A stretch of 64,000 nucleotides of DNA from Antedon mediterranea (lineage: Eukaryota > Echinodermata > Crinoidea > Comatulida > Antedonidae): positions 18,703,001-18,767,000 of the forward strand of contig NC_092680.1 of NCBI RefSeq assembly GCF_964355755.1, given 5' to 3'. The notes under the pieces are model-generated. The model had not been told where the DNA came from, did not search any database, and worked only from the letters and a program-made list of their open reading frames with translations. Of the stretch, positions 90 through 48,400 are shown piece after piece; position 1 is the first letter of the stretch; each line of letters opens with the position of its first letter. The translations under genes were made by a program, and so were the position numbers.

Positions 90-407
90 CTGAAGCACTG
101 TTCCCATCTCTGCCAGGTCTTTCTGGTTAAGCTCCTTTGATTGCAAAACATCAAGTGTTGGCAGTAACCAGTCTTCTACTTCATCTGTTTCCCTTTGCAG
201 CCTACATAGCTGATCACTGACTGTCTGCAGGGTGGATCTCTGCTGCTTGACAGGGGCAAGGACTTTGCCAAAGCGGGAATTCATTTCATCCAGTTTGCTC
301 TGGATGTTCATGACAACACTAGGATCACTAGTCTGGATGAGGTTGGAAGCAGCTTCATTCACCTTCTCAATATTGGGCCGCAGACTATCTAGTCGATTTT
401 CTAAATG
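90..407 (-). CDS. MACF1/DST: Exon 107: C8 slot f (318 nt), last exon in window
   Basis: [60 protein letters not shown]. Full spectrin repeat with [12 protein letters not shown]. Ends phase 0 at CTT CAG before GTATTT; slots g to k of this cassette should follow beyond the left edge. Confidence 0.95.
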
Positions 408-3400
408 CTGCAGAATTTTAAAACAAAATTAATTATTTAGAAGAAGCAGAACATTTACCTAATACAGTACAATTTGTTTATTATTTATCTCAATTCAGTA
501 AATCTAAAACCAATTTAAAAATTGAAGAAACATAAAATACACACAAAGAAAATGAGGTGAAAGATAAAGTTTTAAAAAAGAGTGTCATTATTATGAAAGA
601 AATAAAATCATTTTAATGAACTACTTAAATCCTTATAACAATATTTACCCCATATTGTTTGACACTCTCTAGCAACGGCTCTTTCCTCATCAATACAGGT
701 GCCTGTTCAAGACGTGACTGTGCATACTCTACATCCTGGATCTGTCGGACTAGGTTGTTCAAGCCTTCTTGAACATTGTTTGAATCAGCCAAGACTGACT
801 GAAGGAGGTTACTTCTTTCTAGCACCTTTGCTTCCAATTCATTATATTTGTCAACCTTTTCTCCTAGGAAGTTAAAAATATTAGTTTTAATAAATATGTG
901 TTACAATGTATACCGTCATTAAACCATGACAGAATTTCACCTAGTAGAAATGGAGTAAACAAAATAATGAGTTTTGCCCAGGCAAGTTGAAGAACATATC
1001 CAAATTGACAGGTTGGGACTACAAACTACTAAAGTCGCAGCCATTCATGGTATAACAGAGTTCATTTGTAATGAGAGATAAATTAACTCAATTTCACAAC
1101 CTGGAACATATCCAAATTTACAGGTTGGGACTACAAACTACAGTACTAAAGTCGCAGCCATTCATGGTATAACAGAGTTCATTTGTAATGAGAGATAAAT
1201 TAACTCAATTTCACAACCTGGAACATATCCAAATTTACAGGTTGGGACTACAAACTACTAAAGTCGCATCCATTCATGGTATAACAGAGTTCATTTGTAT
1301 TGAGAGATAAATTAACTCAATTTCACAACCTGGAACATATTCAAATTTATGATCTTTCAAAGACTAATTATACCTGCAGTCACAATGAATGGTGTGAAAG
1401 ACCTTATTTTAGATCACAAGCTGCAGGAAATTGACTTACTAGTTTGGAATGCTACATCTTTCTTAACTCCTTCATGAACTTCACAGAAATCTCTACTAGC
1501 TTCTTTCAATCTCTCAACTTCCTTGGCATGAAATAAGATATCGTCTGCAACAGTTTTAAGTTTGCTCAATTGATGTTGAACAGTGATCGGTTCTGCTGCC
1601 ACAGGCTCTTCCATAAGATGCTGGAGAGTATTAGTAGTCTCGTCAAGCCATGGTGTCAATGGTTCACTGGTGGAAAAGTACTTTTGTTGTTTCTCTGTCA
1701 CTTCTTGGAGTTGCTTTGAGTGTTCAAAACATTTAGCTTTAAGACGGTCATATTGTGTGTTCATGTTTGTAAGCTTTTCGTGGATGACATTAGGTTGCGA
1801 CACTTCACTGAATGTTCTGGTGAACTGACGGGGTAAAACTTTGCCACGAAATTCAGCTAAGTCTTCTTTGTAACTCTAAAAGTCAAGATTATATAAAAAT
1901 ATGATAAAAATTACAAATTTGCACAACAGTAAAGTCACAAACACATGCATAATATAAACTTATTTGCCATCACAACTGATCACAAAAATAGTATAAAGTC
2001 TAAATTGGGCTTGTTCAAATTGTCCACACAATATTATGACTAATGAATATGACAAGTTTTAAATAAACTAAAAACAACATTACGATCATTGATGCATTGT
2101 TAATTGTTAACACAAACCTTGGAAGAGTTAATAAACTTCTGTCCAGACATATTAAGGTATTTCAGATCAGCAGCATGGGTGATAATGTCCTCTGTAAATG
2201 CCTTCTGTGCACTATACTGCTTCCTAAGACCTCTGGAATCTGTCTCCACATTTCTTGCAGACTGCTCAAGCTTATCTTCAGCTCCTTTCATCCATACATC
2301 AAAGTTCTCAACTTCAGGCTCGATCTTCTGCAAATCCTCTGTGGCATACTGGAGTTTTGACAACCGAGCATGAGAGTTTGCGTGTACTGTTTCATAGCGT
2401 GCCTTCAGATCTTCTAAACCTTCTTGCAATGTCTGTCTTTCAATGTCTTCTAGTTTGTCTTGTGGCAGTTTCAATACTTGTTGGAGCTCCTGCATTACTT
2501 CTAGTACTGGTGCCTGGTGGCTAAGTACATCTTTATGGATAACCTAAAATTATGAATGTTAAACTATTGATATTGTGCTATATTAAGTCAGACAGCTGCT
2601 TGTATGGATTGGAACACACATTTTCAAGGAACATCTAAATGAAAAGCTTACCTTGTGCTGGTTGAGTTGATCGGTCAGCTGCCTAGCCTGTTGGCTAAGA
2701 GGCTGCTCTGACCCGAGGTCATGCTCAACCTTATTTAACCAATCATTCATGCCTTGCAGGCTTTGAGTGGCTGATGAATACTGTTCCTTGCTTTTAGTCT
2801 AAGTAAAACAAACACATAATTGTAGCAAAATTGTCATTAGTGTAGAATAGTAGTTCAATGATACAAGGTGGTAGATTATCTACACTCGATCACACAATAA
2901 CAGTATAATTAATCATCTTATCACCTCAGTTATCATAACTACTGTATATATTCTGAACTTACTTTCTCCACAAAATCTTGCTTTAACTGATCCAACTTTG
3001 TCTCCGACTCTCGGTATACAACGTCCGACTTTTGTGTCACATTGTCATACTGAGCTCGGAGATCAGCAATTTGATGCTCCAATCGCTGTGCTTGCTGTGG
3101 AGTGATTTCATTGCGCTTGTCTGTCAGGAACTGCTGAGTGTTGTGAATAGCTTCCAATATGGTTGGCTTGTTTGTGGTAACATCAGTAACTAAACCCTGT
3201 AAGATGTTCTAATGCTTAATAATTTATAAGAGAATAACTAACTCACCGGTAGTAATTTATATGACACATCTACATTTTGTTTTGGAGTACTATAGTTGCA
3301 AAAATCAGTATGGATCGTTATTAGAGCACAGACATGATAGAAAACTCAACTCAATCAGATTTAAAAAAAAAAAAACATAACTAATTTTGTAAATCACAAT

Positions 3401-6400
3401 CAAAGAATTACTCCATATATAGACTCCATAAACTTCCTGTTAACAACATGAGGAATGTTAGCCTTGCTGTTAAATATCTTAGAGAACTTCGCTTCATGAG
3501 AAAAAAGTTTAAAAAAACTTGCCCTGTAAACTTCATACTCTGTATTCAGCTGCCCAAGCTCTTCACTCTTTGGTGCTGATTGTACAAGTTTTGAATCAAC
3601 CTGTGTAACCCACTCAACTAGGCCTGTTACTTGGTTTGACTTTTCAAGGAAAGATTTAGTCATGGCAAGTTCATCATCTCTAAAGTTTAATCGGTTTACC
3701 AAAGTATCATAGCGATTCTTAACTGATGACAACTCTCTTTGTATTGGACTTTCTTCCTCTGCAAAAATTAAAATATTTAAATTTTGTATAAAAAGTACAT
3801 CAGAACATAAATCACAAACAAAATCATTGTTTTCCCTCAAATTTAATATGAGGAATGAGCCCAGTATGAATAAAATTGGTGGTACAATATTTCATTGCAC
3901 TGCTCTGTATGTCCATAGTTCTGATAAATTTTAATTCAATTTAAATTAATACCTTCAACATCAAATTTATTATCCTCTTCTTCTCCTGTTGTTTTACGTG
4001 TTGGTGGGGCACTGTCGCCAGCCAAACCAACTTGAAGTGACCGATAGTGTGGTCTAGCATGTACAGGTGATTCTTCTTCATGCATTAATTTGTCAAAAAT
4101 TTGACCCAACTTGTTTAGGTCGGTGACCTTTTGTTTGTACGCACTGACCTCTGATTTTAGGGGCTGTAAAAATAGGAAAAAACCGCTGCATCAACATACC
4201 TAATTATTTTTATTTTATTTATTTTTTTTTTTTTATTTATTCGTCTTCTCACTAACTCAGTTAGTGAAGGATCAACAGGTGGTAAACACCTCTAAAACGG
4301 TCCAGTCCCAATTTGCACAGTGGCTGTGTGTGACAGTGGCTGTGTTTGTGTGGACTAGTACACCGGGGTAACCCCCTACTCATCTCGAAAGATGTACTAG
4401 GTTCTTTAAAGTGCGCATGAGCTATGTGTACACTGGACCTACGGTTTATAGTCCTTATCCGAGAAGACTCGTTCTACCACCAGAACCATGGAGCGAGTGA
4501 GCCTCGAACCCTTGCCGATGTTATGGCTACGTAATTACGGTTCCACTGTCTTAACCACTCGGCCACTCACTCGCTCTGTTTGATTGAACACTAGCTTATT
4601 AAAAAATAACATAAACATGATTTAGTTTCTAAAAGATATCTATAAAAGTTTTCCTAACCTTGATTTGGTCCATCTGAGCTTGTACTGCTACAATATCGTC
4701 AGCAACTGGTAACAAATTATCAACCTTGTTTTCCATTGTATCCAACCAATAGGTGACATCACGATTGTATTGTTGATACCGCTTGTTTGCTCTTGCCTTT
4801 GAATCAAACTGCTTAAATCTGTAACCATAACAATTTGACATTTAAGAAATAGCACTATAGTTAGCAGCAACATGACCCTTAGGAGAGAAGCATGTAGTTG
4901 AAAAGACCACAATGTTTGTGGAATGCGCTACATAAATACATTAACACTGATGAATTACCACAAAAACATTGAATCAAATAATATAATTATTTACACATAT
5001 GTTTTAAAAACTTAAAATCACATACTGGTGTATCAATTGAGATACAAATAAAATATCTTTGATCTTTGATATCTATGATTTCTGGAAAAATTTAATAAAT
5101 AATAAAGTCACAATCTTCTAACCTTTTAGCAAGAAGCTCTTCCAATAATCTCCAGTTCAGGTCTACATTTCTCATCACAGTTGTCACATATGAAGTGTCC
5201 ATTGCCTTGGAGTTGCGTACCATATCATCTCCAATAGAGTGGACACGTTTTAAGCGAGGTCTGTTCTCACTCATTTGTTTCTTTATTTCCTGTACAAAAC
5301 CAAGAAGACAGATTTTTCAAATTTAGAAAATGCTTGTTGATATCAAATTCTTAATATTCAGCAGACATTGTTTATGTATCTGTATGAAGCTGCCTTTACC
5401 TTAAAAATCTATTTTTAAAAAAACTTCTCTAAATTGCCACAACGATGGGATTATCTCATCAGTTGATTTTTGAAAGGATTTTAGACACTTAACAAACCAA
5501 CCTTGAGTTCTTTTTCAAGTGCTGGCAGTTGTAGTTTGTTGATCTCCTTTGACTCAAGTCTGTCCAATACAGGTATCAACCAATCTTCCAAAGTCTCCAC
5601 TTCCTTCTCAAAGACTTCCAGATTATCACTAATCTCTTGCAAGATGTGTTTGTGTGTGTCGGAGGTAAGAGCAAGTTTACTATAACGTGTATTCAATGCA
5701 TCAACTTTAGCCTGGATATTACGAGCTACTTTAGGCTCCGACGTTTCAACAAGTTTGGCTGCTTGTGCCTTTACAGACTCAATGCGTGGCAGTTGACTCA
5801 TGATGGTCTCTTCAACAGCCTAAAAAGAGAGTTTGTTATTTAGTCTGTACTGATACTTCATCAAATCATTCATAAACATGATATAAAAAAGATCTTGCTA
5901 TTGACAAAACCCGCCATGAGCTGAACCAATTTGGACCAAAAAAGCCCATTTACCATAAATTTCAATTCTAGTCTCTAGTTTCAACAGGGGTTGCTTACCT
6001 TATGTTCTTGGATGGTGGCAAAGAGTGGATCACGTTTAGCAACCACAATGGTTCCCTTTTCAATTCTATGCGATTCTTTCTCAGCGCCATCGATCCAATC
6101 AAGTAGGTCATCAAGGCCATCCTGCACATTCTGTGACTCTGCTAGCTTAGTGTGGAGAACAGCATCTCGTTCCTTGATTTGACTATCCAACACTTGATAT
6201 CGAGCAAGTAATTGCTCTGTTGTAATGAATAGAAAAAAGAATATTGTAAATATCAGCCTTCTGAGAGTAAGCTACAAGGTGGTTGGCCAAAGGAGAAGAG
6301 ATAATTACAATCATATGAACCAACCATCTATAGTTTGTGACAGCTTCACATTGCCTCTATGCCAAAACTAGTAATAGTTCACCTCACACGGCTTTACAGA

Positions 6401-9400
6401 AATAAACATTCAACCAACAGAAATTAAAGGTCTAACCTGTTGTAGCACTAGCTACCACCTCTAGCTCTGGTTGAATAGCACCTAACTCATTTGCTGTTTC
6501 TTTTGTCTTATCAATATCTTTTAATTGACTGCTGACTGCTGTTCGCAATGTCTGTGAAAACAGGAAAAATCCAGTTTATTTATGGTTTATGGTTGATTTG
6601 ATATTTTGAAAAATCAAAAATCAGAATTGAGCAATAGACATTCATACCTTAAGTTTATCTATCTGTTTCTGTACCACAACAGGATCTGCTCCAACTGGTT
6701 CATGCATAATCGCAGTTGCAGTTGATTCTGTATCGTGGAACCATTCTTGTAGCTGTTCGCATTGATCCTCAAACGACTGTTGACGTGACACAACTTCTTC
6801 TAGGTCGTCAGTATGTTCCGTACTACTGAGCTTTAATCTGTCATATCGTGCTGTGATGTGATTCAACTTGCCTCGGAGAACGTTGCTTGATGATTTTTCA
6901 GCGAAATTGCGTACAATTTGGCGAGGTACTGCTTCACGATATGCTGCTAAGTCTTGTTTGTATCCCTAAAAATAGAAAATATAGTACAGTTAGCATAATG
7001 TCTATTCCAATGTCAAAATCTAGATAGTAAAACTCCCAGACATTCAATTTATATTTGTTCAATTGTAAGCAATTTATTGATTTACTCCATCACAAAGTCA
7101 GCAGTTACAGTGCTAAAAGACAATATTGTATATACTCCAATCTAGAAATATTATTAAACTAACCTTAGCACCCTCCAGAATCTTCTGACCAGCCTTCACA
7201 ATATACTTCAAATCCGCTGAATGAGCTATTACATCTTCATTGAATCCCTTTTGGTTGTTAAACTGACATCTGTTACTGGTGAGATCTTTGCCGATGCCTA
7301 CCATGGAAGCATCCAAAGAGCCTTCAGCAGAGTCCAACCACTTCTCAAAATCTTTTACTTCCTCCTCAAACTTGGAGATGTCCTCTTCAGCAAACTTCAA
7401 TTTGTTCAGACGGCTGTGAGATTCTGTGTTTGCAGCATCAAATCGATAGCGCAAGTCTGTTTGGTATTCTGATAGCTTTCGACGTTCATCCTCGCTCAGA
7501 TGTTGAGCATGTTGTCTGAGAAGCTGCTGGGAGTCTTGTGTAGCTTGTACAACAGGAGTCTGATGAGCCTGGATGTCTTCATGTATGGCCTAAGAAAGAT
7601 CAAATAGGTGAAATGTTACCATAAGAAGTTTAAAAATGTATGAACTATGGTTTATATTTTCTTAATTTAGAGAATCAAGTTATAACAACATTTACCTTGT
7701 GTTCTTTAAGTTGCTCAGTAACTTCAGCTGCTGTTTCTGCTACAGGTTGCTCCATTGCTAAGGCACTCTCTCCTGTACAGATCCAATCAAGCATGTTCTG
7801 AAGACCTTGACATATTCCTGTGTATCGATCACTTAGTGCAACCTATTAAATAGGAGAAACATTATTAAAATCTTAGTTTTATAAAATATTAGCATCAGAA
7901 TAGGAACATATTATACCAAAATATAGCCCAGCTACCAAACATTTTGAAAAATAAAACATAAGTAAAGTTCTAAATTCCTACATAAGCTAATACAATTTAA
8001 GTTATGAATGAATTAACGTTAATTCTTGACATGCATTACTAGCTATACAGCTGTCCATACCTGTTCTTTTTCTTGTACATCGAGGTGTTCCAACAGTCGC
8101 ATTGATTCCCTCTGCCATTCATCAGAATTAGTGCATAAGGTTTCAAACTCTGATCTAAGGTCATTTACTTTGTCTTGTAGCTCTTTTTGCAACATCGGTG
8201 TAAATGAATCTCGATTGTCCCTTAGGAACTGTTCAGTGCCGTGGATTGCTTCAAGGATTGATGGTTTACTTGCCAGGAAGTCAGTATTTACAGTCTGAAA
8301 AAAAAACCAATGGAAGCATGAATGATAAATCAGCATGGATGTTGTTAAAATCTCCACATGATTTGATGATAGCAACAGTAATTAGATAAATAATAATAAT
8401 AAAATAATAAATAATGTTTGATATGAATATACGTACTGTGAATGCGTCCATCTCTCTTGTTAATGGAATCAGTTCTCTGCTAACTGGCTTCTTATCATAC
8501 AGGTTTTCATTAATTTCCTTGACATTTTCGGTCACTTTCTCGACAGCATCCTTCTTGTCCAACCACAGGCACATTACTTTCAGTTCATCTAATAATCCAG
8601 CTATGACCTTATCAAGGTCGTTGTAACGTCTGTTAATAACAGCTAGTTCTTTCTCAACATCGGTGTCTTCTGCAATATTAAAAACATTTACTTACCATTT
8701 AAACACAGATTATTTAAATGATATAACTCAAAACAATAAAACAAATCGGAATATTGAATATTTGCGGGAATCTACAGTAGGATGAAGTAACTACTTGTGT
8801 CATATTAATGTGCATACAGGGACACTGAGAGGCAGTGATTTCTCAGTGTTCCAGGTCCAGACAACAACCAATTACACAATATGCATCCTGTAGGTTCTAA
8901 ACTCCCTATATATATATTTAATACCTTCTAATATTGTCCTCTCTAGACGGCTGACATCACGGTCTTGTGGAGGTGACCACTCAGTTTGCAGAGTTGCACC
9001 AATATGCGTGGACCAGTATCGTCGACGGGATGAAACACGTGCTTGTTGCTCACGTTGCAGACTATCGAGATTGCTTCCTAGTTTATTGACCTCTGTGATC
9101 TTGAGTTTATAGTCCTTGATCTCTTTCTGCAGAGGCTATTGTATTAAAATATTGGCAATTAACAATTGTATTCCAATTTTTGTTAAAGAAAGCTTAGTTA
9201 GATAACTGAAAGAAACATTTAGTGAGACTTAGTCATCACTTTATTTTCAGACAAAAACATCTATGCTGGCACATACAGCACAGAATATATGAATATAAAA
9301 TTATATGAAAATAACACCTCAATTTCAAATTTTCAATTTATGGTACTGATGTTATAACTAACATTTCTGAGAAGCAATGCGAGAATACAGTTCAATTGGT

Positions 9401-12400
9401 TAATGTGCAATATTTAGAATACAGTATAATAGTGTAAACAGCTAAATCTTGATAAATTATATCTAAATCTCCTTAAATAGAATAATTTAGAATTAGAAAT
9501 GATTGCATGAACTTAACTAAATAATCAACACTCACCATTGATGATTAGTTGTGATTCCCGAAGAAGAGGAGAATGATGGTGAAAATTAAGAAAAGAATGT
9601 TAGCAAGTGAATCATAAAAAATGAGAATTATTTCAAATTAGAATATATTATCATTTTTTTCAGTTTTTTTATTTTAATTCTGTGGATGAGCATTAAGCCA
9701 AAGCTAACCTGAGCGTATTACATTTTTAATATTAATTTACAGAAATAAAACAAAAGGTTAAAATGCATTAATGATAATATATAAATTTAAAGCAATACAT
9801 GACATGTGCATGATGATAATTATCATATTTCATTACATATACACCAAATTATTCAGCATGTAGTGCTGTGAAGAAGTGTTTAATAGTTGTGCAACACAAA
9901 AACACTAAAAAATATCTATTATTTTAAAAGTTCATTATTGGTATAAATCCTATGATATCCTATTGTTACTTTAGGAATATCCTAATATCTCTAATATCCT
10001 CATTAAATCCAGTGTCATTTAAATAGAGTTTCATTGATTCCTATTTGAGTGCAAAGTTTGACAAAACTGTTGTTTGTGTATGGTGATTTCGTATATATTG
10101 TGCAATGATGATTATTTGTTTTATTAACATGCAGTAGTAATAGCGTATATACAAAATCAAAATATATTTGTTAACAATTGCCAAAAATGTTTTTAAAAAT
10201 AAAAGAAAATATCAACATAATAACGTGACAGGAAGACAAAATGGTTTCTAAGCATTTGCAGAGTGATTGAAATGAAAAAAAAATGTCACCATTTTAAGAA
10301 ACAAAGAATTTGTTTAAGCTAACAATTTCAATGACTTTTTCTTTTTTGCAAAATGCATACAAATTTAATTAATTTAAATTCTAATTTATTACCTAAAAGC
10401 AATATTGCATTTTTAAGCATGCTTTAAAAATCTATTTGCTATATGATTGAAGAAAGTGAATATTGAAAGAAATGTACTGCATGTGTGTTTACCGTAAGTT
10501 TCTGTATTTGCATTTGTATACTTCGAGTTTCTTTAGTACTGGGGTTGATGTCTTCTAAACTCTGCTCTGTGTTATCTAACCAGAAGTCGACTTTCTCCAC
10601 CATACTGTCGTATCGTTTCTTTGCTAGTTTACGATCATCCATCTGACCATATCTAAAAAAAGGGAGATATGTACTCTGGAAAAATTTCTTTTGTGATTAC
10701 ATACCAAAAATGTCTTTGTTGAAACTAAAATAACTAAAGGACACCGAATTCATTTACAAAATATGATACAAACCTCTTGGTCAAGATGTCCTGCAGACAT
10801 GTCCAGTTTTGATTGAGATTGGACAGAACAGCTGCAACAAATGAGGAGTCACTAGCTCTTGGATGCTCCATCAGCTCCTGTCCAAGGTTGTGAATGTCCT
10901 GGTGTTCTTGAAGATGGTTGTTGACATCATTAGAGATGGCCTGGAAAATAGAATAGAATACATTGGCATTATATGTAAAGACATTTTTGAAAGCAATTGG
11001 ATGGCAGAAATTTACATGATGCAGCTTTACCTGTAATTCCTCTTCTAGATCTTGAATATCTTTCTTCATAATGTCAGGACCTTCCAGTTCATCTAATACA
11101 GGCATCAACCACTCTTCCAATTTGTCTACATCTCTTTCTAGATCGACAAGCTTTCCAGAGAGATTCTGAAGAGTTTCTCCATGCTGTTTCAATTGTGTCT
11201 TTGTAGCAGAGAATCTAGAGTTGAAGTTCTCAATCTTTCTCTGGAATAGTTGTCGTTCCTCTGGACTGCAGTTCACCATAAGTTTTGATATCTCTTGCAT
11301 AACTGAGTCAATGACTGGCTGGTGGCTGTTGATCTCTTTTTCCAAAAGCTTAAAAATTATATTTGAAAATGTTGTTAAAACAGAATGTAGAGCATTTGTG
11401 TATGTTTGTTATGTTTGATGGCCATTAATTATTATTGGTTTGGTATATACCAAAGTTGTAATGGTGTAATCATTCAAGTATCTCTTACTCTATATTCTTG
11501 CAGTCTTTCCACAAGAGGCATCTTTTTAATCACAATGACTGTTCCTTGACGCATTCTGAAAATGATCTTCTCTTTTTCATCCAGCCAATGGAAGAGTCCA
11601 TCTAATCTCTCTTGCAGAGACTGCATGTCTGACAGAGATGACTTTAATGCTTTCTGCCTGCCATCAATCTGTCCTTCCAGATCATTGTATCGTTTGACAA
11701 TATCAACTAAATTAAGAAAAATTGCCATATAAAATTTAGCAATATTCATTTGACAGTATTTGAATGATGTTTGAAAATATGTAAAAAAGGTTGGGTATTG
11801 TGTTCTTACATGTGGTTTGATCGACATAATCACTGGTGCTTGTTTGAGCCTCAATAAGTTCATGTCCTGCCTCTTTCACAGCATTGATGTCTTTGCCATG
11901 AAGTATAACAGCATCAAGCAAAACCTATAAAATCAAAAGATATTGTAAAATGTACAATTCTGTAGTTTGATACAGTTCATTTGAATGTTCACTTCATTGC
12001 ATTTTTCTGAGGTTTCATCAGATCAGTGGTACTTGCAGTGGTTGTTTCACCTTATAGTAATAACATAAAATGTTACTATTTATACACAAGCAGCACATAT
12101 AGTCAAGAACATATGTATGCATTAAGCAGTCATTTGTGTTATTTCTTTAATATAAAATGAACCATACCTTTAGACGATTAATTTGTCTTTGAATCATGTT
12201 AGGATCAGAACCAATAGGTTCTTTCAATAATCTCTCCAGATCAGTTCCAACATCTCCTAACCATCGATATGTTGTTTCAACCAGGGTGTTGTAATGGCGG
12301 TGTTTGTCTACTAACTCTGAGAGATACTTCATGTAGTCATTGCTGGTTAGTTTCAGCTGGTTATAGCGATCATTAAGATCTGCCACAGTGGCCATGATCA

Positions 12401-27400: not shown

Positions 27401-30400
27401 TAATGAACCTAAATAAATAGAGTAGAATAGATATTTCTTTTGAGATTTTCCTTATAATTGTCCTTATACAAATGAAAATTACTGATAATATTGATTGTAG
27501 ATCAATTGATATCCATCACCAAATATTTAGTTTTAAGAAACCCACCTTGTGTTCTTGAGTCTGTTTTGTAAGGTCATTAACCTGCTCTTCCATCAGTGGT
27601 TGACCAACAAACTCCTGTTCCTTTCCACTGATCCAATCCAGCAATGCCATCAGATCATTTGTGGTTGACTGGGTCTCTTTTTCTAATGTCATCTTCGTAA
27701 GAGAAAGGTATAAAAACATATTACTCTTTTTAGACAAACAATATAATTTACATTTTAAAATACCAATTATTTATTTTCTAGAATAATATATGTTTATTGT
27801 TTTGTGTTGAAAGTTCTTGTGAGCTCTAAATATCACAATATTTTGAAATTTCACCGATTATCTTCGTTTTAAGCTTTTATTAATGAAAATATAAATTAGA
27901 AAATTAATGTTAATAAGTAATGAATAAAAACAAAAATATCTAAAAAAGAGATTAATAACAGAAAATAAATAAAATCGTGCAAATTATAAACAAGTCTGGT
28001 TAACAAATAAAGCCCTTTTGGATCTGAAAATGATAACACTTCAAATATCTTTTAAAACAAATAATTCTCAACAAATAAAAAACCCTGAATTGTTAAGTTT
28101 GATGGATACAACAAATTATTAGATTAAAGAAAGTTAATAAACGTGGGCATAAAGACAAAAATCAAATCAAACTCGTGCAGGTTATTCATTTATTATGTAC
28201 AGCCAAAAGGGTTATCTATGTATATAACCATTTGATACATCTATTTGATATATATTTCATTTGATACATATTTCATTGTAGCACAACAGTTTGCCTACTA
28301 CATTATGTATGTCAAAGATTAGGTCACAGTAGGATCAGCCAGCCATTTTTAAATATATAAATTCTCCTAAATTTGTGAGTCACACAGTTGAATCAAGCAT
28401 CTTATATTGTCAGTTCTACTGATTTTTGTAAACATAAATAAATTATCCTCTCTCCTAGGCTTTTTTCAAATTGTAATATTGAGTGGATACAAAATGTGCG
28501 TTGTGTTTTAAACAAATTTAAAAGTTGCCAAAAAGTTAATAAATAACACCCATTGTATTAGTTTTATATACAGACTTACTTGTAGAAACAGCCTCTGTAA
28601 AAGGGAAGGTGGACAATGTAACATAAATAAATGATATGAACAGTTATCTTTGATGGCCAGCACATTAATAGTGTATACAATTATAAATAAAAACTAATAC
28701 AGAGTTAATAGCAAGAAAATGGAACTGTAGTAAAAAAATGTACAGATTAATAACGATGCAATAAAACTATAAAGAAATAAAAGAAAATAAAAACAAATAA
28801 CATATAAATATAAAAAAACATACAAAAACTCATATTTAGTAATTTTAAACTCTGATCTTGTATTCAATACATATAGAGCACATATGGTGGAGAATTAGGT
28901 TGTAGTGAAGCTGTAACGTGCTTGCATTTCAATCCTAAGTTCCATTCCTGACCTAGTTCTTGGGATTGTTATTCACAAATATAAAGCTTAAAAATGCACA
29001 CCCTGTATTAGTGTACTTAGTACTTAGTACACTAATACAGGGTGTGTATTTTTACTTGCTGTTGAATGTGTATAAAATAACAACATATTATAAACTACAA
29101 ACCTTGTTTGTTTGTTCCTTGTTCAATTTCTTCAACATTGTCTTCCAACCCTTCAGATGATCCATGGACAACACCAATATATTCTCATAGTATTCCCTCA
29201 GTTCATCCAGACATTTTTGCATCTCTGCTTGCTGCTCAGCTGTTAGCTTGTTACGGTTGTCGCGAAGGAATTGGTCGCAGCTTTGAAGAACTTCAAGAAT
29301 CTCAGATCTTTTGCTCTGAAGTTGATTGTGCAGTGCCTAGAAAATGGAAAGAAGTACATTTAAAAGATGATAATGGAGAGTTTTACTGAACTGTTTAAAA
29401 AACAAGATGAAATACAGACAGGGCTGAACTTTTTTTATTATGTATTCAATGTTCAATTGTATGATTAAAAGAAAAATACCTCTTGTTCGGCAATGACATT
29501 CTCTAGAGTAACAACATCAGTGATTGGTTGTTTCTCTTCCATAAACTTGGCTTTGATTGGTCGAGACCAGTCAAGGAGTTCTTGGAGATCTCCCAGATAA
29601 TCTTGGTACAATGTCAAGACCTGAATGAGATCCTGGATGACCTCTTCACGCTCTGTGATTCGATCCAGAAGATCTTGATAAAGTTTTCGTAATACCTTGA
29701 CATCATTCATCAGTTCAGTATCTGTAAAGACCCAATATCCAGACTATTAAACAAACAAACGCAGTCAAGTACAGTAGAACATCTATAAGGGAAAACTTCA
29801 GAATCCAACCAAAGTGTTCAATAGTGTTAAGAAGGGGTTTTACTATAATCAAATGCTATGGACATATGTCTATTAAACCTTGGAAACTATGGGTGTAGCA
29901 GCCCAACATTTCCAATTCTTTCTGAAAAACCACAACTCTTGCTTTTATTACAGTAGTGAGTCAGAAATGGATACTATTATTAAATGTCCATACCTTCAGA
30001 CACTTGGAATGTCTGTTGAATATCAACAACTCGTCTTTGTATTGGTCCATGGTCTCCTGGCCTCAGAGCAACATGAGTTGATTTTCGTCGATTGGTAACA
30101 ACTGTCTCAGTAGCTTGTATGAGGTTATCTAATGTCTTTGCCATATCATATATCTCATCATACTTTGGCTTGAAGCTTGCTACCTCTTTTCGCATGGGCT
30201 TCAAAAAATAAATGAAGTTAAAAATAAAATGTTTGTCCATCTATTACATTCTCGGCAGTAATTTATTTTAATCCTTAAGTCTTCAATTTGCTACACTAAA
30301 GCTACTTAAGTCATTACCTTCATTTGTTCTAGTTGTGACTTCAATTGTTCAAGATCTCGGACAACATGAGGCAGCTGGTCAACTTTAGCCAGAGTGCTAT

Positions 30401-33400
30401 CATGCCACATACTAACCAGACGAACAGCGTTCTTGTACTTGTCAGTCAGATTCTTGCGTTTAGTTAGGTAGTCAGTTCTAAAATGAAAATCAAATATTAT
30501 TAAAAATATTTGATGCTGTAAATGTTAAATAATAATGCACATCAAGTCCAAAAAAGGTAATTTGTATGACTGTCATCTTTAAACACTTGCAAACAATAGG
30601 AAGATTTTTTTAAACTTTATTCAAACATTAGGGGATTTTAAAATCTAGACAGGCTTTGTCCTGGTAATGACAATACTATAAAGAGCAGTAGCATTAAATG
30701 TGTCTTTTTATTAGATCCTTCACTCACAATCTTGTCAATGCATCCTCCATCGTCTGCCAATTTCGATCAACATTTTTCAGTAGGTCAATAACAAAAGCAG
30801 AGTCACGCGCCCTCACATGATTAATGAGTTCATCGGCGAGCTTCTTGATTTGTCGATACTCTGGTGCATGCTCTTTTATTTCCTCATTAACCTCCTACAA
30901 AAATAATAAATATTTTGATCATATATGTTCTTCCACTCATAATAATATTAAGCTTTACAATAACAACCAAATATTGGCAGTATATTGCCGATTATACACA
31001 GTTTAAAAGCGACTTAAAATTGGAGAATAAACAGACCATAAATCGGATGACTGTAAACCTTAGTTAATCTTTCAAAACCTATTATAAACAAATACCTGTA
31101 AAACTGCTTCTATTTCCTGTATATCCTGTTTCTTCAAATTTTGTGATTCCAAAGCATTCATTACCGGGAACATCCACTCTTCCAATTGGTCAATCTTCTC
31201 CATCAGGCCAGACAGCATTGACAACATCTTTTGGAGGTCGTCTGCATAATATTCTAAGCTACATATGTACTTCTTGTAGCGGGAAACCACCTCATCAATA
31301 CGCCCTCGCAGCTTGTGGGCCATGGCTGGTGTGCTTGATTGAAGCATTTGTGAAGTTTTGTTTGTTATTGCCTCAATGACTGGTCCATGTGATTGAAGTT
31401 CACCTTGTAACATCTTTACTTGCTGAAGCTGTTCCATGATTGGCTCAAGTTTTACCACAACCTTTGATTGATCCAATGGCATTAATCGTACTTCAAAATC
31501 ATCCAACCAAACACTGGTAGTGTCTAAAGTATCCTGTGTGTTTGTCAAGTCGGTCATTGCTTTCTGAAGTTTGTGACTTCTGTCATTTACCTTTGACCCA
31601 ATGTCATTATACTTTTCGCAGAGGTTATCTAAAGAATGTAAAATGAATAAGAAAAAATGAGTTTAGTAATGAATGTAATAACACAAAATGCTTCTTTAAC
31701 AAAAAGAAATTATTAAAATATAATTTAAAGTGTTTGTTGACTATTTTTCATGTGTGTTACAAACCTCTTTTTTATTTTAAAATATTAACATGTGTTATAC
31801 TTTTTAAAATTGTCTAAAAATGTAAAATTGTTATACAGTAACATCATTTTCATATTATATGAAATACTTAAACATCATGTATACTCAATTGATAACTTAA
31901 TCTCACCAATTGATCTTTGAAACTTGGGCTTAAGTCCAGGCTGTGATTCACATAGTTGTACTGTAGTCACTTTGATCTCCTCAATGTCCTTTAGATGAAG
32001 ATGAATATCATCTTGAACAGCCTACAAAAAATGTTATTTCAATTAGACTATTCACAAAGTTGTTCAGGTAGTTTGAATAAATTATTTACTGTAGTCCTTT
32101 TCATGTAAAACTGTGTATTGCACCATAATGTGTCTCATTCATCAGTACAAAGTACAGTAAACTACATCCAGATATCAGGGCTGGGTCCTGGTGCCAAAAG
32201 GAAGCCGCAAGACCTTAGTACAAAGTATAGTAAACTACATCCAGATATCAGGGCTGGGTCCTGGTGCCAAAAGGAAGCCGCAAGACCTTAGTACAAAGTA
32301 CAGTAAACTACATCCAGATATCAGGGCTGGGTCCTGGTGCCAAAAGGAAGCCGCAAGACCTTAGTACAAAGTACAGTAAACTACATCCAGATATCAGGGC
32401 TGGGTCCTGGTGCCAAAAGGAAGCCGCAAGACCTTAGTACAAAGTACAGTAAACTACATCCAGATATCAGGGCTGGGTCCTGGTGCCAAAAGGAAGCCGC
32501 AAAAGCAGCGCCACTTAACTACCTTTAAAATATATGAGACATGCTTTCTAACCAAATCTTATTCTGAAGATTTGGGAGCATTTACTGGTTTTTGGACTAA
32601 TAATTAAGGAATGAATAAATAAATAAATAGAGGAATAAAAAAGTACTAATGGTGACATGTGCTCACCCTATTTTTGGCAATTTGTTCCTGTACTGAGGGA
32701 ACATCACTGCCCATTTCTTCTGCTTCCATCTTCTTAACTGTTTCAGTAGACTCTTCAATCCAGATGGTGAATTCATTTGTAGACGTGTGCAATCGTTCAT
32801 GAAGGCTAAGAACAAGTGTAAGTTTCTCTGTGTGCCGAAGGCAAATTGCTTTAAGATGTTCATATTTCTTGTTGGTATCATTTATTTTGTCTCTTATTTG
32901 GTTTGCTTCTGGTGGTTCAATATAACTACGCAATTCCTCCTTTGTAAGAGTTTTCTGTCGGAAGTCTGCTAGCTGATTCTTGTAATGCTGTAAAAAAAAT
33001 TATAATACAATAACTTCAATTTTTATGTCCCTCAAATAACTATCTACCTAGGGAACTTTTTTAAAGAATTTGATAATAGCAATAATAATGATAATCATTA
33101 TAAGGTATCAGTAAATAATTTAATTTGTTGCTATACCATGTTATGAATATTGTATTTGTAGTTTTTTATAGCATACAGTAATACCACACTGGCAATTACA
33201 TTCTCTGCTATACTATATATAATAAATCAGCTTCATATTATTGTAGCAATATTATTCTGATTGCCTTATTTGAAATCTAATCTGAATTGTAGAAATTGTA
33301 GTGATATTTCATTCATAACTGACACCAAAATATTACCTCTGCAGATTTTAAAAATTTGGTTCCAAAGATATTCAAAAATTTGAGTTCCACAGCATGAGAA

Positions 33401-36400
33401 ATGATCTCCTGGTTGAATTCTTGCACCTTGGTCATCTGGTGCCTCAGTGAATCACGATCTTTGGCAATATTGTGAAGCAGTGTTTCTTGTGTTCTTTCTG
33501 CTGATGTAAGCCATACATCAAATGAGGAATGTTCCTGATCAAACTTCTGTAGTTCTTCCAAGCCAATGGCGAGCTGATTCATGCGACCATCACTCTCTGA
33601 GTAAAGAAGCTCATATTTCTCCTATAAATTTAAAATGTCAATATGAAATGATTATAAATGATAATGATTATTATAAATAAGTTAGTATAATTAATACAAA
33701 TCATCATTATCCAAGTTTTCAATGACCTATAATAAAGCCTCATGTGACAGTGTTTATACCTTCAAATCTTGAGCAGCAGCTTTGATGTTGCCTTTGTTAC
33801 TGTCACTCAATTTATCTGGTCTGGTCTCCATTAGGAATTGAGCATTGTGAACTGCTATCATTACTGGTTCCTGTTGATTGCGGATCTCGCTATGAATGGT
33901 CTGTATCAACACAAATTAAATAAAATCAAATTGGTATAGAATATAAAGCCTTATTATTAAAGACTACAGTACAACTCTTGACAATTATAGCAAACCCTCT
34001 TGTGATTATCAGGTTTTCAAGAAAGTATTGTTACTGCACTACTATATTTAGTTAAATGGTTTAATTTCTTCAGATGATGCATTTCAGCCTTCTCAACTCA
34101 CCCTATGTTCCTGCTCTTGCTCTCGGAGTGGTTGAAGCTGTTCCTTCATTGGTAATTCCTCCCCAAGTCTACTTTCAACTGATACAATCCAATCCTTTAA
34201 GTCTTTCATCTTCAAACCTTTGTCCTTGACATCCGTAAGCAAGTTCAGCTAAAACCCAAATTGAAAATGTATTTTATTAGTATTTGTTTGGTACAATATA
34301 TTAATATATATTAATAATGTTCATGGAATAGAGTCAGGAATAGAATCAGGAATAGAATCAGGAATAGACTTGATTGAGGTATATATGATTTATGAAGTTT
34401 ATAATAAAAATGACGTAAGAACGATAAGATGATGGCAGTAAAGATGTGGAAGGAAGAAGATGATGGCAGTAAAGATGTGGAAGGAGGTATAATTGCACTG
34501 AAAAGCGGGTTCTTTCTTACCTCGTCTAGCATACTCCTCAACCAATCTTGGTTTTTTAGGTGAGTTTGATCTATATGCGACTTCAGCTCATACACTTCAT
34601 TTTGCAGTACTTCTTGCTGGTCAGATGTCAAGCTGTCTTTCTTCTGATGAAGGAATGTCTCTGCATCCCTCAGTGTGTTATCAGAGATTGGTTTATTGTT
34701 GACCAGGTCTCTTTCAATTTTCTAAATTGATATTTAATTATTTTTATTAGTGTATTATAAGCATCAAAGATTTTCAGAGAATTGATACACCTTTATACTT
34801 ATACATTGGTATGTAGCAACAATAAGCTGAACATTTAGCTAATTATGTATTTCACTGTATTTCCTCTTTTTATACATCTTTTAATTATTTCAAAAGTCTT
34901 ATTTTCTAGTTGATAAGATTTGTTTATTTTGTGTTTATTAAAAGAAATTAAGATCTTTACCCTCATATTGTCAAGCTGTAATTTCAATGTTTGGTAGTCC
35001 ATGCTGATTGGTTCATGGTTGTCAATAGTTGTTTCTACGGCAACAATCCATTCATGCTGATCATGTAATGACTTGAGATGATCTTGGTGTTGTTTAGAGA
35101 CATTGAGAATTGCATCAAGTTCCTCATATCTGACGCCCAATTGACTACCTAACCTGTTGTACCGGTCTACAATTCCTGTTACAACCTTTTCAGATGCCAT
35201 TGTATCTAAAAAAAGAAATATAAATTGACACTTACTAATGAGATATCAATGTGTAGTAAGTAAAGAACAGTATATAGAAAGCAATACATCAAACGTTATT
35301 TTCCATTCTAATATTACAATCTTGTAACCAAATTTTGTTTTTATTACAATTGTGGAGTTGTCCAAAATTTCTGAAAGCATTTTAAACTAACATTACTCAA
35401 TGCAACAACACATGTTATTTGTGATTGATAGATTAAATTCTGCAGACAATATTCATACACAACCGTGATATCAGCGTACTTTTGAGTCAATCAGTAAGCA
35501 TTTGATAAAATATTGAGTGACTTACCTTCATCAAAAGATGAAAAACGTTTTGAAGGAAGAGACAGAAGCTTCTCACTGACACTTTCAAATTCCATTGCAT
35601 TTACAGACATGCTTGATCGACGTGGAGTGCATCTGAAAGGAGTACACATGTCCTGGGTTAAGTAGTCCAGCTTGATTCCAAGGTCTTTGACTTCTTCTAT
35701 ATCACAGCGTGACTTTTCATATTCCTTCTTCAGAGGCTAAAATAGAAACAAATACCTTGCATTATATAAAGTGTAAATGGTTAATTACAGTATATCAGAT
35801 GAACCAATTTGAAGATACCACAAATTAAATGACCTGATTATTGTGACTATTAAATTCCTGAACTAGGGAATTCTGTCTACATACTGAACCAATGACTATA
35901 AAAAAATCATTGTTTAAAAGTCACTGTTTATTTCTGTTACATAATTGCTAGTTTTTTAACTGCCAATCAAAGCATTGCTTTATATTCTCATTTGCATAAT
36001 GTATTGTTTTCAATACAATGACTATAAACACAAAAGAAAGTTGTGTCTGTAAACAACAATGTAAATTAACATTGTAAGTGACCCAATAACATTAATTATG
36101 AATGCCAAGTTAGAAGATGATTAAATACAATACAATGTAGAAGATACTTTCATATTATGGCTATGTTTTACATAATTCTCCTATAACAAATTGAAAGTAT
36201 ACCTCTAATTGTTGCATCTGTATTTGTATGGTATCTTTATCACGTGATATTGGTTTCAATGTCTGTACTTTGTCAAACATCGTGTTCAACCATAGCGTTA
36301 CTTTCTTCACTTGATTTTGGAAGGCCTTTGTTGCAATCTCACGCTCTGTATACTGCTTTCGTCTAGAAAAAAATGTTTTATAAGCTATTCAGTCATTCAG

Positions 36401-39400
36401 TGGAAAATTCACAAATCATTTAAACAAAATATGATATTTTCATTTTTTTGACCTTTTGACATTTTAATAGTAGTGTGGTTATTTTCTTTAATAAACCTCC
36501 TAAAATAAATTAAACAATACAGTGCCTGTATTGTTAATTGACAGGATGATTTGGTTATTGTTTATATTATCCTGAAGAACAGGACACTTTTATGGACACT
36601 GACCAAATCATAATAATAACTAACTCTTTTACCTCTTCTTCATCAATGTGTCAAGACTTCTCCAATTTGATTGAACATTCTCTTTTATCTCATCAATGTA
36701 GGACACATCATTATTGCCAGAATCATTTAGTAAAGTAATACATAACTGCAATATGCCTTCATACTGAGGCCTGTGTATTTCTATCTGTCTTTCAATATCC
36801 TGCAAAGAAAATCTCTATTTGTAGTATTTGTATTTGTATTTTGCTAATTTACTTTTTAGAGAAGGAAAAGACCCCTGAATAAAATAGTGACATCAAAAAG
36901 ACTGGCTCTTCTTGGATCTGGATTGATTTGGACACAGCAACAATGGACAGAAGACTCTGCAAAACACTCGATGACCCCAGGAGGATGTAAAGACTAAAGT
37001 AACTGCTGCCAAAATTTATGGTAGGTAGAAATTTTACATTTCTTGCATAAATAATTGTTATGATATTTTATGATATGATATACGTTTTTAAAACTCACCT
37101 GAAGTTTTGTATTGCACTCTGGCAAATCCAATTTCATAAGCTCCTTAGTCTCCAGAACTTGAGCAGTTGGCAGAAGCCAATCCTCCAACTCTTTGACCTC
37201 ATTATGTAGTCGTAAGAGATCCTCCAGTAGTGATGTCAAATAAGTTTCTCTGTTGTTTGATCGAGTGATGATCTTTCCAAAACGCGAGTTAAGATCATCC
37301 AGTCTTTTCTGGATACTATGAGCTTGTTTTGGATCACTGACTTTAAGTAGCTCTGTTGCAAGAGTGTTGACAGAATCCACGCTAGACTTGTGACTATCAA
37401 TATCAATCTGGTGAAGCTGAAAGAGTAAAATGAAAAAACTTAGTAAATAAATAAATATTCTATTACTTTTAAAATAACATTTAATAACAAGATGAATTTT
37501 GCATGATTATGGAACCATTTTCAAAACACATACCTTGTGATATTGAACTTGTTCTTGTAGGTTGTCACGCTTAACGAGTACCTTTGCAGAGTCCAGCTTA
37601 TCAAATGCATCCTCTTTCTCTTCCAACCATATGATGAGGCTGTTAAGGCTGTCCTGAAGGCTACGAGAGTTCATAAGGGTTCGATGCAAAGTACTGCTCC
37701 TCTCCGTCAGCAAACGTTCAAGTCTGTTATAACGCTCACTAACATCATCTACAATTATATATTGATCATAAAACAATTTTATCCAAATATTATATAGATA
37801 TCAATATTCCACATCCAATTGTTTAAACATGAATGGAACAATAAACTTACCAATGGTCCTTTGGACATCAGGTTTAACCTCTGGCTGTGCATCAGTCAGC
37901 TCTCTTCCTGTATATTTCAAGTCTTCGACATCTTTGGAGTGTTTGATTACATCATCATTGAATGCCTGTAAAGATTAATGTTAAGATTTATCAAACTAAA
38001 GTAACTTACAACATCCTAGCAGACTATTCTAATTACAATTGCTCTTTTGACAGCTAAATGAATGATGAACTACTTTTGTTTCTGCTACAATAAATTAGTA
38101 GTACAATCTTTTAAAATAAACAAATCTAGACCTTAAATTTCTCTGCCTGTTCTTGGACAGTTGATGTCTCTGCTGCAATTGGTTCTTGCATGAGTTTTGC
38201 CATTGCTTTTTCTGTTGTATCTAACCAGTTTGTCACAGATGCAAGACCTTTGTTGTAATGCAAATGTTTCTTGATAAGAACTTCCAACCTCTTGCCAGCA
38301 CTATCACACTTCTGTTCCAAGTGTTCAAATTCTTCATTTAGATGAAGCAGACGATCTTGGATTCCAGTTGAATCTGGTGCCTCGCTAAACACTCGGTTGA
38401 ACTGACTTGGGAGGGCGGTTTGGCGAAATTTGTGTAACATTTGTTTGTAGACCTAAAAATATAGAATGACGAAGTTGAATTAAAAGATAAAACATATAAA
38501 CATCTCCATCAATAATTCGAACATGACAAAGCCAGACAATTAAACATCTCTGCTAACCTTTGCATCTTCAATATACCGCTGTCCACTATCTTGCACCATT
38601 GCCAAATGTGACTTGCGTACATTCATATCGGAAGAAATCCCTTGAAGTTGCATCTGTTGTCGTTTCAAAATGCTTACATCACGACCAGGATCGCTGAGCA
38701 ATCCATCGATATCGTGCATCGTCTTTCCAAGCCAGTGCTCGAACTTTGCAAGGTCATGCTCAAAGTTGTGGAGGTAGTCTAAAGCAGAAGTGAGGTGATT
38801 GACACGTTCATCCGCTTGGTTCTGAAGCAAGTCAAAATGACTGTATAGTTTTTTCTGTATATCCTGTAGTGTGGCATGATTTGGCTGCGTTAGTTTATCA
38901 CCGCTGGTGTTCACAAACTTTTGGATGTTTTCAACTGTGGTTTTTAGTGGTTGTTCATGAGCATTAATGTCATCTCTCAAAGCCTAGGATTAATACAAAA
39001 AGTTAATTATTTTTGGTTCAGAAGGCACATGCAAAAAACCTAACAAGATGATTTTAACTTTACAGGATGATTTGTTTATTACAGTACAGTAGTACTGTAT
39101 TCCCAAACTATTATTTGTATTTATTACGAGCATGGTGGTTTTAAACGATACATAAAGATTATATAGAGATTATATTCATTTTTTTTGTATTAATGAAAAT
39201 AATGGTAATACTGAGTGACTCGAAGATAATAATAAAACATCACCTTCATTTTGTTGAGCTGTTCATTTAGGGGCTGAACCTGTTCACTCTGAGGCTGTGA
39301 TGATCCCATTGCATGTTCCGTGTCTGACAGCCATTTGAGTAGTAGTTGTCCATTAGAATAAACGTCTTGGAAGTTCTTATCAATTAAATTCTACAACAAA

Positions 39401-45400: not shown

Positions 45401-48400
45401 ATATTCATCAGAAGGCGCATTCCCAGAATCTAATGACTTCCACCACTTAGATATAGTTGACAACAAAGAACTTTTTTCTGAAGTGGAAGTTTGGTTGTCT
45501 TTTGAGATTTTTTTGGGGTTTTTTCTGTTTACAGTCTCCGCGCATTCTATTGCTGGTGATAGATGAACCTCCATACTATCCACATTGCAGTCTTCAGTAC
45601 CTATCACTAATTCTTCCATTACTGGGATTTCGGGAAAAGAAACGTTTTTTTTAATGACTGATGGTGACTTCTGCTTCTTTAACTGACCAACTGGAGGATG
45701 TCTCTCTTTTGGTCTTACTACCCTGGTGTCATGCGATAAAGCTGGCAAGATCATCTCAGGACAACTTGTCCCTGATTGATATTGTGAACCCCTTGGATTC
45801 GTTTGATATTCAATGAATTGTTTAATTGATGGTTGATGAAGAATTAATCTTCTATGTATCATCTCAACTTGGATTGGAGGCAAAGAGAAGATTTCCAACG
45901 GATTTAAATTTGAAACATCAATCTGTGGAAAATGGAAAAAGGTTTATAAATAAGGATAATTGCATTTTTATCGGATTTTCATTTTATATAATTCTAAAAA
46001 TATAAATCAAATTAGTTAATTACAACCTAAATTAATCATTTCTATATTAAACTTAATTTTCTACAATCAATTTAAAACATATATTAAAAAACTACCTCAA
46101 ATCATTATCCATTTCAAAATAAAATAAAATTCTTTGCATTGCAAACCAGATTAAGAACAAGAATTGAATAGACACAAGTTTATTACAGGTTAGAAATTAT
46201 ATCGTTTACCAAACCACAAATAAAGTACAAGTTTTAATGATTATTACGACCACCGTTACACAAAATGTATAAGGAAAACATGAATAGCAAAATGTGCAGA
46301 AACAAGATATACCACAGTTTATAGAGTTAAGTGCTAACATTTTGTGCACAGAAAACAAGGTATTTATGTAAAAATCTTACACCTTAATGAAACATACTTG
46401 TTTCATGCGAAATATTAGTCAGCCTTTTCCATGCTACAGGATATTTAAGAAGTTATTTACCATGCTACAAGTAATTTATGATGACTAAAACACCCAATAC
46501 TATAGAATTGTTATGGCATGCAGAGGGAGGGTAAATAGAAAAATGAACAGCAATCCAAGCATACCACTTACCTTATAACATCAGGATAAACAAAACTTTT
46601 TTAGCCAATCAGGAAAAAGGTTTGCCAACATCATAAAATGACACTTCTGCACATGCTCTCCATTGGGCAGACAGGAAGCCATTTTGATTTTGGTGGAATT
46701 GATATTAAAATATCATACATGCTAATGAGGTATCAGCAAGGCAGACAATATTTAAATTCTAAAGTATATTATTAAACAGATGATAGCAAACCTAACAACT
46801 AAAAATGAGGATGGAATCATTCTGTATTGCCATTAGAAAATATGTAAAGCTGTAAAAGAAAAATATCCCAGAGAAAACAGCAAACTTTTCTATACTTCTT
46901 GGATGTGTATACTGATAAAATTATTGAGTAAAAGTTAATTTCTACAGATTGTTGTGGTGATATGGTTAAAATGATCAATTATTATTAAGAAACATTTTCT
47001 GCAATGATAAATTTAAATCATAAATGAAAAACCAACATATATTGCATTTTAAAATCAAATAAATTACAATAATTTGTGTAGGTTTTTAAAATATCCACGC
47101 AGAAAATGTAACTTAAATGGAACGTTAATAATAATAATATGTGATGATATATATTATTTATAACTGTAATAGTATAAAAAAGTATAATTCTGGTGATACA
47201 TATATTGCATGTGTTATTGTTAAATAATAAAGTACAGTAAAATCAAACAGACAAACTTGGGTTGGCTCATAAATTAATGCATTTTACAAACAGAGAATTA
47301 TTTGGCTACTGAAGAAGATTTTGTCTTGAGTTCACTGTATTACTCATTATTGTAAAGATACTACTTTGTATATATATACTTCCTCCAACACAAGAATAAG
47401 ATAATTTTAAGACGCCGGTGGGCACAGTTAACACCAAAAGCATAAGAATATACAAACTATAAAAGCTGTTAATTCTACTAGTATTTTTGGTAAAACATCA
47501 ATAGCATATTATTATGTAGCTGTTAAACATGAAAGTTCATATCATGTAGTGGCGCTGTTCGCTACCACAGGCAATTGATTTACCCATAGTAGCAGTAAGC
47601 AGTAGACACTGAAGTATGTGCGTGTATTGTTATTACTGACAGTGACATTGTCAATTAGTAATTTAAACACTTAGGATAATATACATGATTCTATGTGGTA
47701 ATAATTACAACATATTGTAGTATATAATATTATATACATCACACTATATACTACAATATGTAATATAATATACATCATTAGAAGGTAGTGTAGTTAAACC
47801 GCTACACATGTAATATTTCCCTTTCGGTTTCATGTAAAAACATTTTTATCAAATTGTATCATCCCAAAAACATTTTTTTTTTGTATTACAATCAATCATG
47901 TAGGTAAGCATGTATATTATCCAGTATTCAAATTCTTTTAAGCATAGAATATTTAGACAAAGAATTACTTTTCAGATTTATTTTGTTCAGAATTAGGCTC
48001 TTTAAAACACTTATGATTGATACCTGTGAAAATAATCAAAACGTCATGATTTAACAAGAATATTCTTGTAAAGATAACGAAAAGAACCAATGTACAACTT
48101 ACATTGAGTTGTTTTCCAACCGAACCAATGACTTCAATTCTGTCTGTCACATTCATTGACAGTTCCTCGTACCGTGTCTTGAATGTTTCAAGTTCTTTTT
48201 GGATTATTTCTGCTCCAGATTCGAGACGAGGGCGTTTTGAGGTAGACCTGTCATGAAATTCATCAACTTGCTTCATGTAGTTCTCCTGTGCTGCATCATA
48301 AACCTAGTTGTAGAAACAAAAATAAAAAAAATAAAAAACAATGGGTAACAATTGAAATATTCTGTTATTATTATAATTACATAAACTGTTTTATAAAAAT

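Follow-up and report, generated by a model that had tools for sequence, protein, structure and literature searches.

A feather-star spectraplakin gene with nine tandem seven-repeat cassettes in its rod

How does a cytoskeletal linker protein come to have a rod encoded by exons whose lengths recur, in the same order, over tens of kilobases? This question is raised by a 64,000-nucleotide (nt) stretch of the genome of the feather star Antedon mediterranea (hereafter the window; positions 18703001-18767000 of contig NC_092680.1, abbreviated C11), whose minus strand had been described in a first-pass annotation as a spectrin rod made from an ordered series of 11 exons, present seven full times plus a partial eighth. 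We analysed the window together with its flanking DNA and find that the locus is a complete spectraplakin gene, with CH1-CH2 domains, a plakin-domain SH3, a rod, EF hands and a GAS2 domain. Its rod contains nine diverged copies of the exon block (hereafter cassettes), which together encode about 63 spectrin repeats. It is highly probable that these cassettes descend from a single ancestral block that was duplicated in tandem in the echinoderm and hemichordate line.

A ninefold array of seven-repeat cassettes

Window exons were assembled by a splice-aware chain search of the minus strand, and gaps were closed by three-frame reading and splice-site checks. The final model has 81 exons (19,749 nt) that form one open frame of 6,583 amino acids (aa) with 0 stops, and its splice sites comprise 80 GT donors, one GC donor (exon j7, window 3523) and AG acceptors throughout. 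When j0, k0, five fused exons and both halves of b2 are set aside, 72 exons can be compared with the lengths originally proposed for slots a to k (147, 426, 321, 115, 218, 318, 167, 160, 211, 233 and 234 nt), and 60 of these match exactly (a 8/8, b 4/5, c 3/4, d 6/6, e 5/7, f 7/7, g 7/7, h 7/7, i 4/7, j 3/7, k 6/7). The split-codon phases reported for the d-e, g-h and i-j junctions are likewise identical across all modelled cassettes. The proposed exon order therefore stands, but all 11 exons are separate within the window only in cassettes 1, 4 and 7; five exon pairs are fused, and an extra intron splits b2 (Table 1).

At a lag of 11 exons, 20 of 70 exon pairs are exactly equal in length, a count that never exceeded 15 when these exons were shuffled 20,000 times, and the signal is partly spread to lags 10 and 21 because of the exon fusions. 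The longest chain of exact lengths in cyclic order comprises 20 exons on the minus strand, compared with 2 on the plus strand and 2 in a 25-kb gap at the same locus. Full cassettes had been estimated at 842-855 codons and about 5 kb of DNA; the measured values are 842-852 aa and a genomic period of 4.7-6.6 kb. These cassettes align nearly gap-free over 861 columns with 25-36% protein identity. A search of window positions 1-45000 for DNA repeats of at least 60 nt revealed three local families and none common to different cassettes, and the cassette copies are therefore old. Introns of the array also carry tandem repeats of 73 nt x 4.9 (window 32144-32502) and 112 nt x 3.2 (window 992-1349).

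With a repeat profile that started from two slots and was refined by iteration over the rod, seven spectrin repeats are identified in each of cassettes 1-7 (a 1.6-bit extra fragment in cassette 6 was not counted), and the earlier figure of about eight is rejected. Within each cassette, repeat 2 is longer than usual and repeat 6 carries a loop. For all 54 of 54 repeats the nearest neighbour lies in the same repeat slot (1 to 7), whereas shuffled labels give a mean of 6.9 and a maximum of 19. Similarity averages 128, 116, 120 and 123 at distances of 7, 14, 21 and 28 repeats, and 22-41 at other lags up to 29. With seven slots a tree cannot need fewer than 6 label changes, and the repeat tree needs exactly 6, with slot support ranging from 66/70 (slot 7) to 100/99 (slot 5). 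Grouping by slot had been fixed beforehand as the test of the proposal that intragenic tandem duplication of a whole block produced a longer rod, and the outcome supports that proposal. For the fused b6c6 exon, an AlphaFold prediction from two aligned sequences (mean predicted local distance difference test score, pLDDT, 64; predicted template modelling score, pTM, 0.36) yields low-confidence helices that fit one elongated repeat.

The array begins with a lone repeat encoded by j0 and k0, which matches cassette-profile positions 733-848 (39.3 bits) and groups with slot 7; k0 alone has zero Pfam matches. The array ends outside the window, where the rest of cassette 8 and a ninth cassette lie in flanking DNA, followed by ordinary rod. 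Exons a9-j9 measure 147, 426, 321, 115, 215, 318, 167, 160, 205 and 236 nt. From j0 to j9 the array comprises 96 exons that encode 7,689 aa in one open frame without a stop, over 48.4 kb, and k9 may lie within the first stretch of ordinary rod (C11:18670298-18670074). The 25-kb gap that follows j9 was searched for another cassette (791 open frames of at least 20 aa), with 0 matches at an expectation value of 0.1. Beyond this gap the ordinary rod is collinear with residues 1915 to about 4400 of the acorn worm (Saccoglossus) protein, and the EF hands and GAS2 domain come next. We estimate from the assembled pieces that the whole protein is about 13,000 aa long.

Cassettes in other animals and their relationships

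A cassette profile was used to scan 20 chosen proteins of about 132 fetched; the non-ambulacrarian set comprises 15 proteins, two of them from the same amphioxus. One long match is present in 14 of these 15, and in chicken MACF1 the match is split in two (104 and 196 bits). Single blocks score 363-519 bits in amphioxus, arthropods and molluscs and 282-330 bits in vertebrates except chicken, with next best matches of at most 149 bits. The slot string 1234567 is repeated in echinoderms, 123456 occurs once in amphioxus, abalone and Daphnia, and the strings of tick, Drosophila, chicken and fish are less complete. Seven non-ambulacrarian rods show no clear lag-7 peak, although Drosophila ranks lag 7 third (21, versus an overall mean of 13). 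The annotation's belief that other spectraplakins have no such higher-order period thus holds for those tested.

Multiple copies were encountered in ambulacrarians. In Saccoglossus, a full copy is accompanied by a second that stops at position 800 of 849 and by part of another at the truncated start of the model, while the sea urchin Lytechinus variegatus (P0003) has six full and two partial cassettes and the crinoid Anneissia (P0002) seven full and two partial ones. A search for a longer database protein (among proteins up to 17,500 aa) gave 3 matches from 164 candidates, the longest of 7,418 aa. The best database match of the rod is to Anneissia japonica (84% over 1,700 aa). When P0002 is aligned from h1 into cassette 9, 5,638 of 6,940 positions are identical (81.2%), gaps are confined to 6 exons, namely j9 and five from slot i, and the predicted protein joins its exons in the same order as the window model.

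A second spectraplakin-like gene resides on the same contig (C11:1256257-1279793) and carries four cassettes, equivalent to 6-7-8-9, the fourth of which is split in Anneissia. Compared with Antedon mediterranea P0004, this paralogue matches at 96.8% when segments above 85% identity are taken together; in the 30 kb examined, these segments account for 3,331 of the protein's 4,785 residues, and many of them reach 98-100%. In the same 30 kb, an exon chain search with a tolerance of 12 nt either way recovers the series e1-h4 as 37 exons. The modal length is matched to the nucleotide by 27 of them, and the last exons, i4-k4, did not come out in order.

Two trees were built, from 42 cassette sequences (tree 1) and from 30 (tree 2). 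The second omits Pristis MACF1 1000-1517, which is a plakin-domain cross-match, pieces with fewer than 450 matched positions (hence chicken MACF1, split in two) and Anneissia near-duplicates; the Pristis piece and the Anneissia copies are present in the first. In tree 1, cassettes 2-8 pair with Anneissia copies 1-7 (bootstrap 100 each) and the outgroup single blocks form a group (85); in tree 2, eight outgroup singles fall on one side of one branch (100/99). Tree 2 also joins cassette 4 to urchin copy 1 (100/99), urchin copies 2, 4 and 6 to cassette 5 (89/84), urchin copies 3, 5 and 7 to cassette 6 and paralogue copy 1 (95/91), and paralogue copies 2-4 to cassettes 7, 8 and 9 (100/100 each). 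Because crinoid and urchin cassettes pair up, the amplification is old. The groupings in tree 2 give the urchin order 4-5-6-5-6-5-6, which points to growth by cassette pair, or to loss in crinoids; in the former case a block of two cassettes (14 repeats) would have been copied in tandem in the urchin line. Cassettes 1 and 9 lie near the base of tree 2 with the remaining cassettes nested (98/98), a pattern that would fit arrays growing from within.

Origin and possible use of the array

The loop of repeat 6, encoded by slot i, spans 43-46 aa as delimited and is disordered by appearance only. Its sequence is enriched in basic-serine motifs: the 405 loop residues contain [RK][RK].[ST] 8 times and the 7,284 other residues 12 times, and R..[ST] or RR.?[ST] is present in seven of nine loops versus 26% of random rod stretches. 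Across ambulacrarians, 19 of 22 loops contain [RK]S, versus 27% of 5,846 random stretches; the three exceptions are cassette 6 and its urchin counterpart, which have YWS in the same place, and one paralogue copy, which has RRRRAS. Comparable sites are present in the single blocks of Drosophila, amphioxus and a barnacle. The recurrence of this motif both across cassettes and in single-copy blocks points to a candidate site in spectraplakin rods.

We propose that the starting point would have been a single block, six to seven spectrin repeats long and with a loop in repeat 6, like that which lies in the first part of the rod in chordate, arthropod and mollusc spectraplakins. This block, together with its introns, would then have been duplicated in tandem in the line leading to echinoderms and hemichordates, leaving here nine diverged copies followed by ordinary rod, EF hands and GAS2. 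The likely mutational route is unequal crossing-over between equivalent introns. Reading frame is kept in 318 of 327 equivalent-intron pairs, and the nine failures involve j0, the sole j exon of differing phase. Because the copies share intron phases, an exchange of this kind would insert or delete entire cassettes while preserving both reading frame and helical register. The product probably links actin to microtubules as other spectraplakins do, with a longer reach, and its nine evenly spaced loops could offer, mostly through basic-serine motifs, sites for kinases or partner proteins. More tentatively, the cassette might be a unit of both length and signalling, such that reach grows in seven-repeat steps and each step adds one PHx[RK]S[TL]-like loop site. 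The result would be a ladder of at least nine sites for regulation or docking, evenly spaced and varying in number between lineages (urchin 4-5-6-5-6-5-6, crinoid paralogue four), which may set rod length in an echinoderm-specific long-range linkage of actin to microtubules.

Several observations count against this account or narrow it. Slot 7 was called in none of the seven non-ambulacrarian rods, nor in Saccoglossus, and only six repeats of the ancestral block can therefore be taken as firm. The root of the trees was assumed, support for the deep forks between cassettes is low (25-51 in tree 1, drawn open in tree 2), and the five-type and six-type urchin groups have 89/84 and 95/91. Exon joins are predicted here from DNA, in a gene model that ends at j9. 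Anneissia P0002 is itself a prediction, and the public models are fragments: P0002 and Lytechinus P0003 both start and end inside the array, and that of Saccoglossus starts inside it. When the slot order was randomized 30 times on the real strand, chains of up to 17 exons were obtained (mean 10.9, versus 20 for the true order), a control that is uninformative because chains may skip exons. Finally, the shark MACF1 block has no [RK]S in its loop.

Could the array instead be ancestral to Bilateria, with chordates and protostomes having lost all but one block? The root was not inferred, and the outgroup singles adjoin cassettes 1 and 9 and the Saccoglossus copies, as such a history would allow. 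However, independent losses should often keep different cassettes, whereas the outgroup singles share one side of a single branch, and just two copies and a part are present in the Saccoglossus model, whose start lies within the array. We therefore regard ancestral multiplicity as quite improbable. Another possibility is that cassettes serve mainly as alternative-splicing modules, so that in-frame skipping of whole cassettes sets rod length in each tissue and the full-length protein is rare. Cassette boundaries share a common phase, making such skipping frame-neutral, and mammalian MACF1 isoforms arise from splicing and start-site choice (PMC8012552, in the part available). The predicted Anneissia protein, however, joins exons from h1 into cassette 9, and we consider this role rather doubtful, albeit less so than ancestral multiplicity.

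Two further readings carry almost no weight. Spectrin repeats are homologous and often have intron positions in common, so a uniform exon layout might imitate a period without any block duplication; yet among lags up to 29 similarity peaks only at multiples of seven repeats, each repeat is closest to its own slot, and the seven non-ambulacrarian rods show no clear period of this kind. Tandem repeats can also be mis-assembled, with one stretch entered repeatedly, but an artefact of this type, which we judge equally negligible, is at odds with the low protein identity between cassettes, with the lack of any DNA repeat of at least 60 nt common to them, and with orthologous copies in another crinoid and an urchin. 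Tandem duplication of an ancestral block thus remains our preferred explanation, and it implies that a conserved cytoskeletal linker rod can grow by whole exon blocks and not by single repeats. Rods with one, two plus part, four, six or more, and nine cassettes form a natural length series for asking what rod length does.

The rest of the gene and related systems

Table 1. Features of the spectraplakin locus (window coordinates unless prefixed by C11)
Feature	Position	Strand	Basis or remark
CH1 exons	C11:18776961-18774525 (outside window)		similarity to amphioxus, chicken, abalone
CH2 first exon	63031..63204	-	Pfam CH 4.2e-6
CH2 second exon	62148..62264	-	Pfam CH 2.4e-5, 24.9 bits, just below cut-off 26
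CH2 end	60684..60770	-	83% identity with amphioxus, 29 residues
Plakin-domain spectrin-repeat exon (open-frame limits)	57508..57921	-	Pfam PF00435 4.9e-9
Plakin-domain SH3 (SH3_10)	53828..53998	-	Pfam 2e-14; amphioxus and chicken matches
Large exon, at most 1,386 aa (upstream limit set by the open frame)	41786..45943	-	phase-0 end before j0
Lone slot-7 repeat before cassette 1: j0 40948-40802, k0 40496-40260	40260..40948	-	spliced model
Cassette 1, a1-k1, 842 aa; k1 201 nt	34521..39390	-	spliced model
Cassette 2, 850 aa; b2 split 33900-33760 + 33621-33337; e2f2 fused 31628-31096	29103..34248	-	spliced model
Cassette 3, 848 aa; b3c3 fused 27408-26659	23077..27692	-	spliced model
Cassette 4, 852 aa	18188..22857	-	spliced model
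Cassette 5, 849 aa; c5d5 fused 16978-16543	13558..17925	-	spliced model
Cassette 6, 850 aa; b6c6 fused 12914-12168	8061..13246	-	spliced model
Cassette 7, 850 aa; j7 GC donor	2963..7842	-	spliced model
Cassette 8, part in window, a8-f8, 514 aa; c8d8 fused 1875-1440	90..2798	-	spliced model
g8-k8 and cassette 9 (a9-j9)	C11:18702931-18695528		flanking DNA, downstream of window
Loop exon of repeat 6, i1	35526..35736	-	basic-serine motif
Loop exon i2	30198-29994	-	basic-serine motif
Loop exon i3	24208-24007	-	basic-serine motif
Loop exon i4	19594-19390	-	basic-serine motif
Loop exon i5	14742-14532	-	basic-serine motif
Loop exon i6	9135-8925	-	YWS replaces motif
Loop exon i7	4163-3953	-	basic-serine motif

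Outside the array, the CH2 exons are also similar to amphioxus, and the plakin region is collinear with the plakin regions of amphioxus and of the paralogue. The rod is recognized by the Pfam Spectrin family (1.9e-67 for cassettes 7-8, 1e-49 for cassette 1), and open frames downstream match EF-hand_1 (3.5e-6), EF-hand_6 (6.8e-6) and GAS2 (2.4e-19 and 1.1e-6). The EF hands and GAS2 are assigned to the same transcript because they are collinear with Saccoglossus. Matches of the rod to Spectrin_SYNE1 had raised the candidate identity of a nesprin, which was set aside after the CH, SH3_10, EF-hand and GAS2 domains were found; this family is not diagnostic, since the precomputed entries of the spectraplakins listed carry it as well. 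Nesprins have a C-terminal transmembrane KASH domain, and the present locus runs on into EF hands and GAS2. The large exon before j0 matches no Pfam family and has no relative among the other fetched proteins. It appears disordered and contains an imperfect direct repeat (41874-42226; 176 nt, 77%). Its position is where MACF1b has its plakin-repeat domain, according to the available part of PMC8012552.

The same domain order characterizes the spectraplakins MACF1/ACF7, dystonin and Short stop, but the relatives of MACF1, dystonin and Short stop tested here have one block where this gene has nine, and the large exon lacks the plakin repeats of MACF1b. VAB-10 is also a spectraplakin. Nebulin, to which the first-pass annotation had likened the array, is a fair parallel in logic, with no membership of the nebulin family claimed: in the NEB triplicate region, a 10-kb, eight-exon block is present as three tandem copies within one giant gene (PMC12402328, in the part available). 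Those copies are 99% identical, in contrast with the divergent cassettes described here, whose unit consists of spectrin repeats. The Caenorhabditis elegans nesprin ANC-1 has six tandem 903-residue repeats modelled as spectrin-like helical bundles (PMC8139857, in the part available). It is likewise a giant cytoskeletal linker with long tandem repeats, but it is a KASH protein and not a spectraplakin. Nested block duplication is known in the spectrin/actinin superfamily. The distinction here is that a seven-repeat block was amplified with its introns and, in our sample, only in echinoderms and one hemichordate. Among the papers listed, titles and abstract beginnings yielded no literature report of this array, which is weak evidence given that most subscription journals lie outside the coverage.

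Two further observations concern other sequences. An apparently intronless gene from C1:39195563 onward, which we take to be beta-spectrin-like, consists of a single 3,586-aa open frame that combines a CH-type start with about 30 matches to spectrin repeats. Outside the modelled exons, the window also contains a tandem repeat of 21 nt x 24 (window 55655-56149) and a GACA-rich stretch (window 61919-62022).

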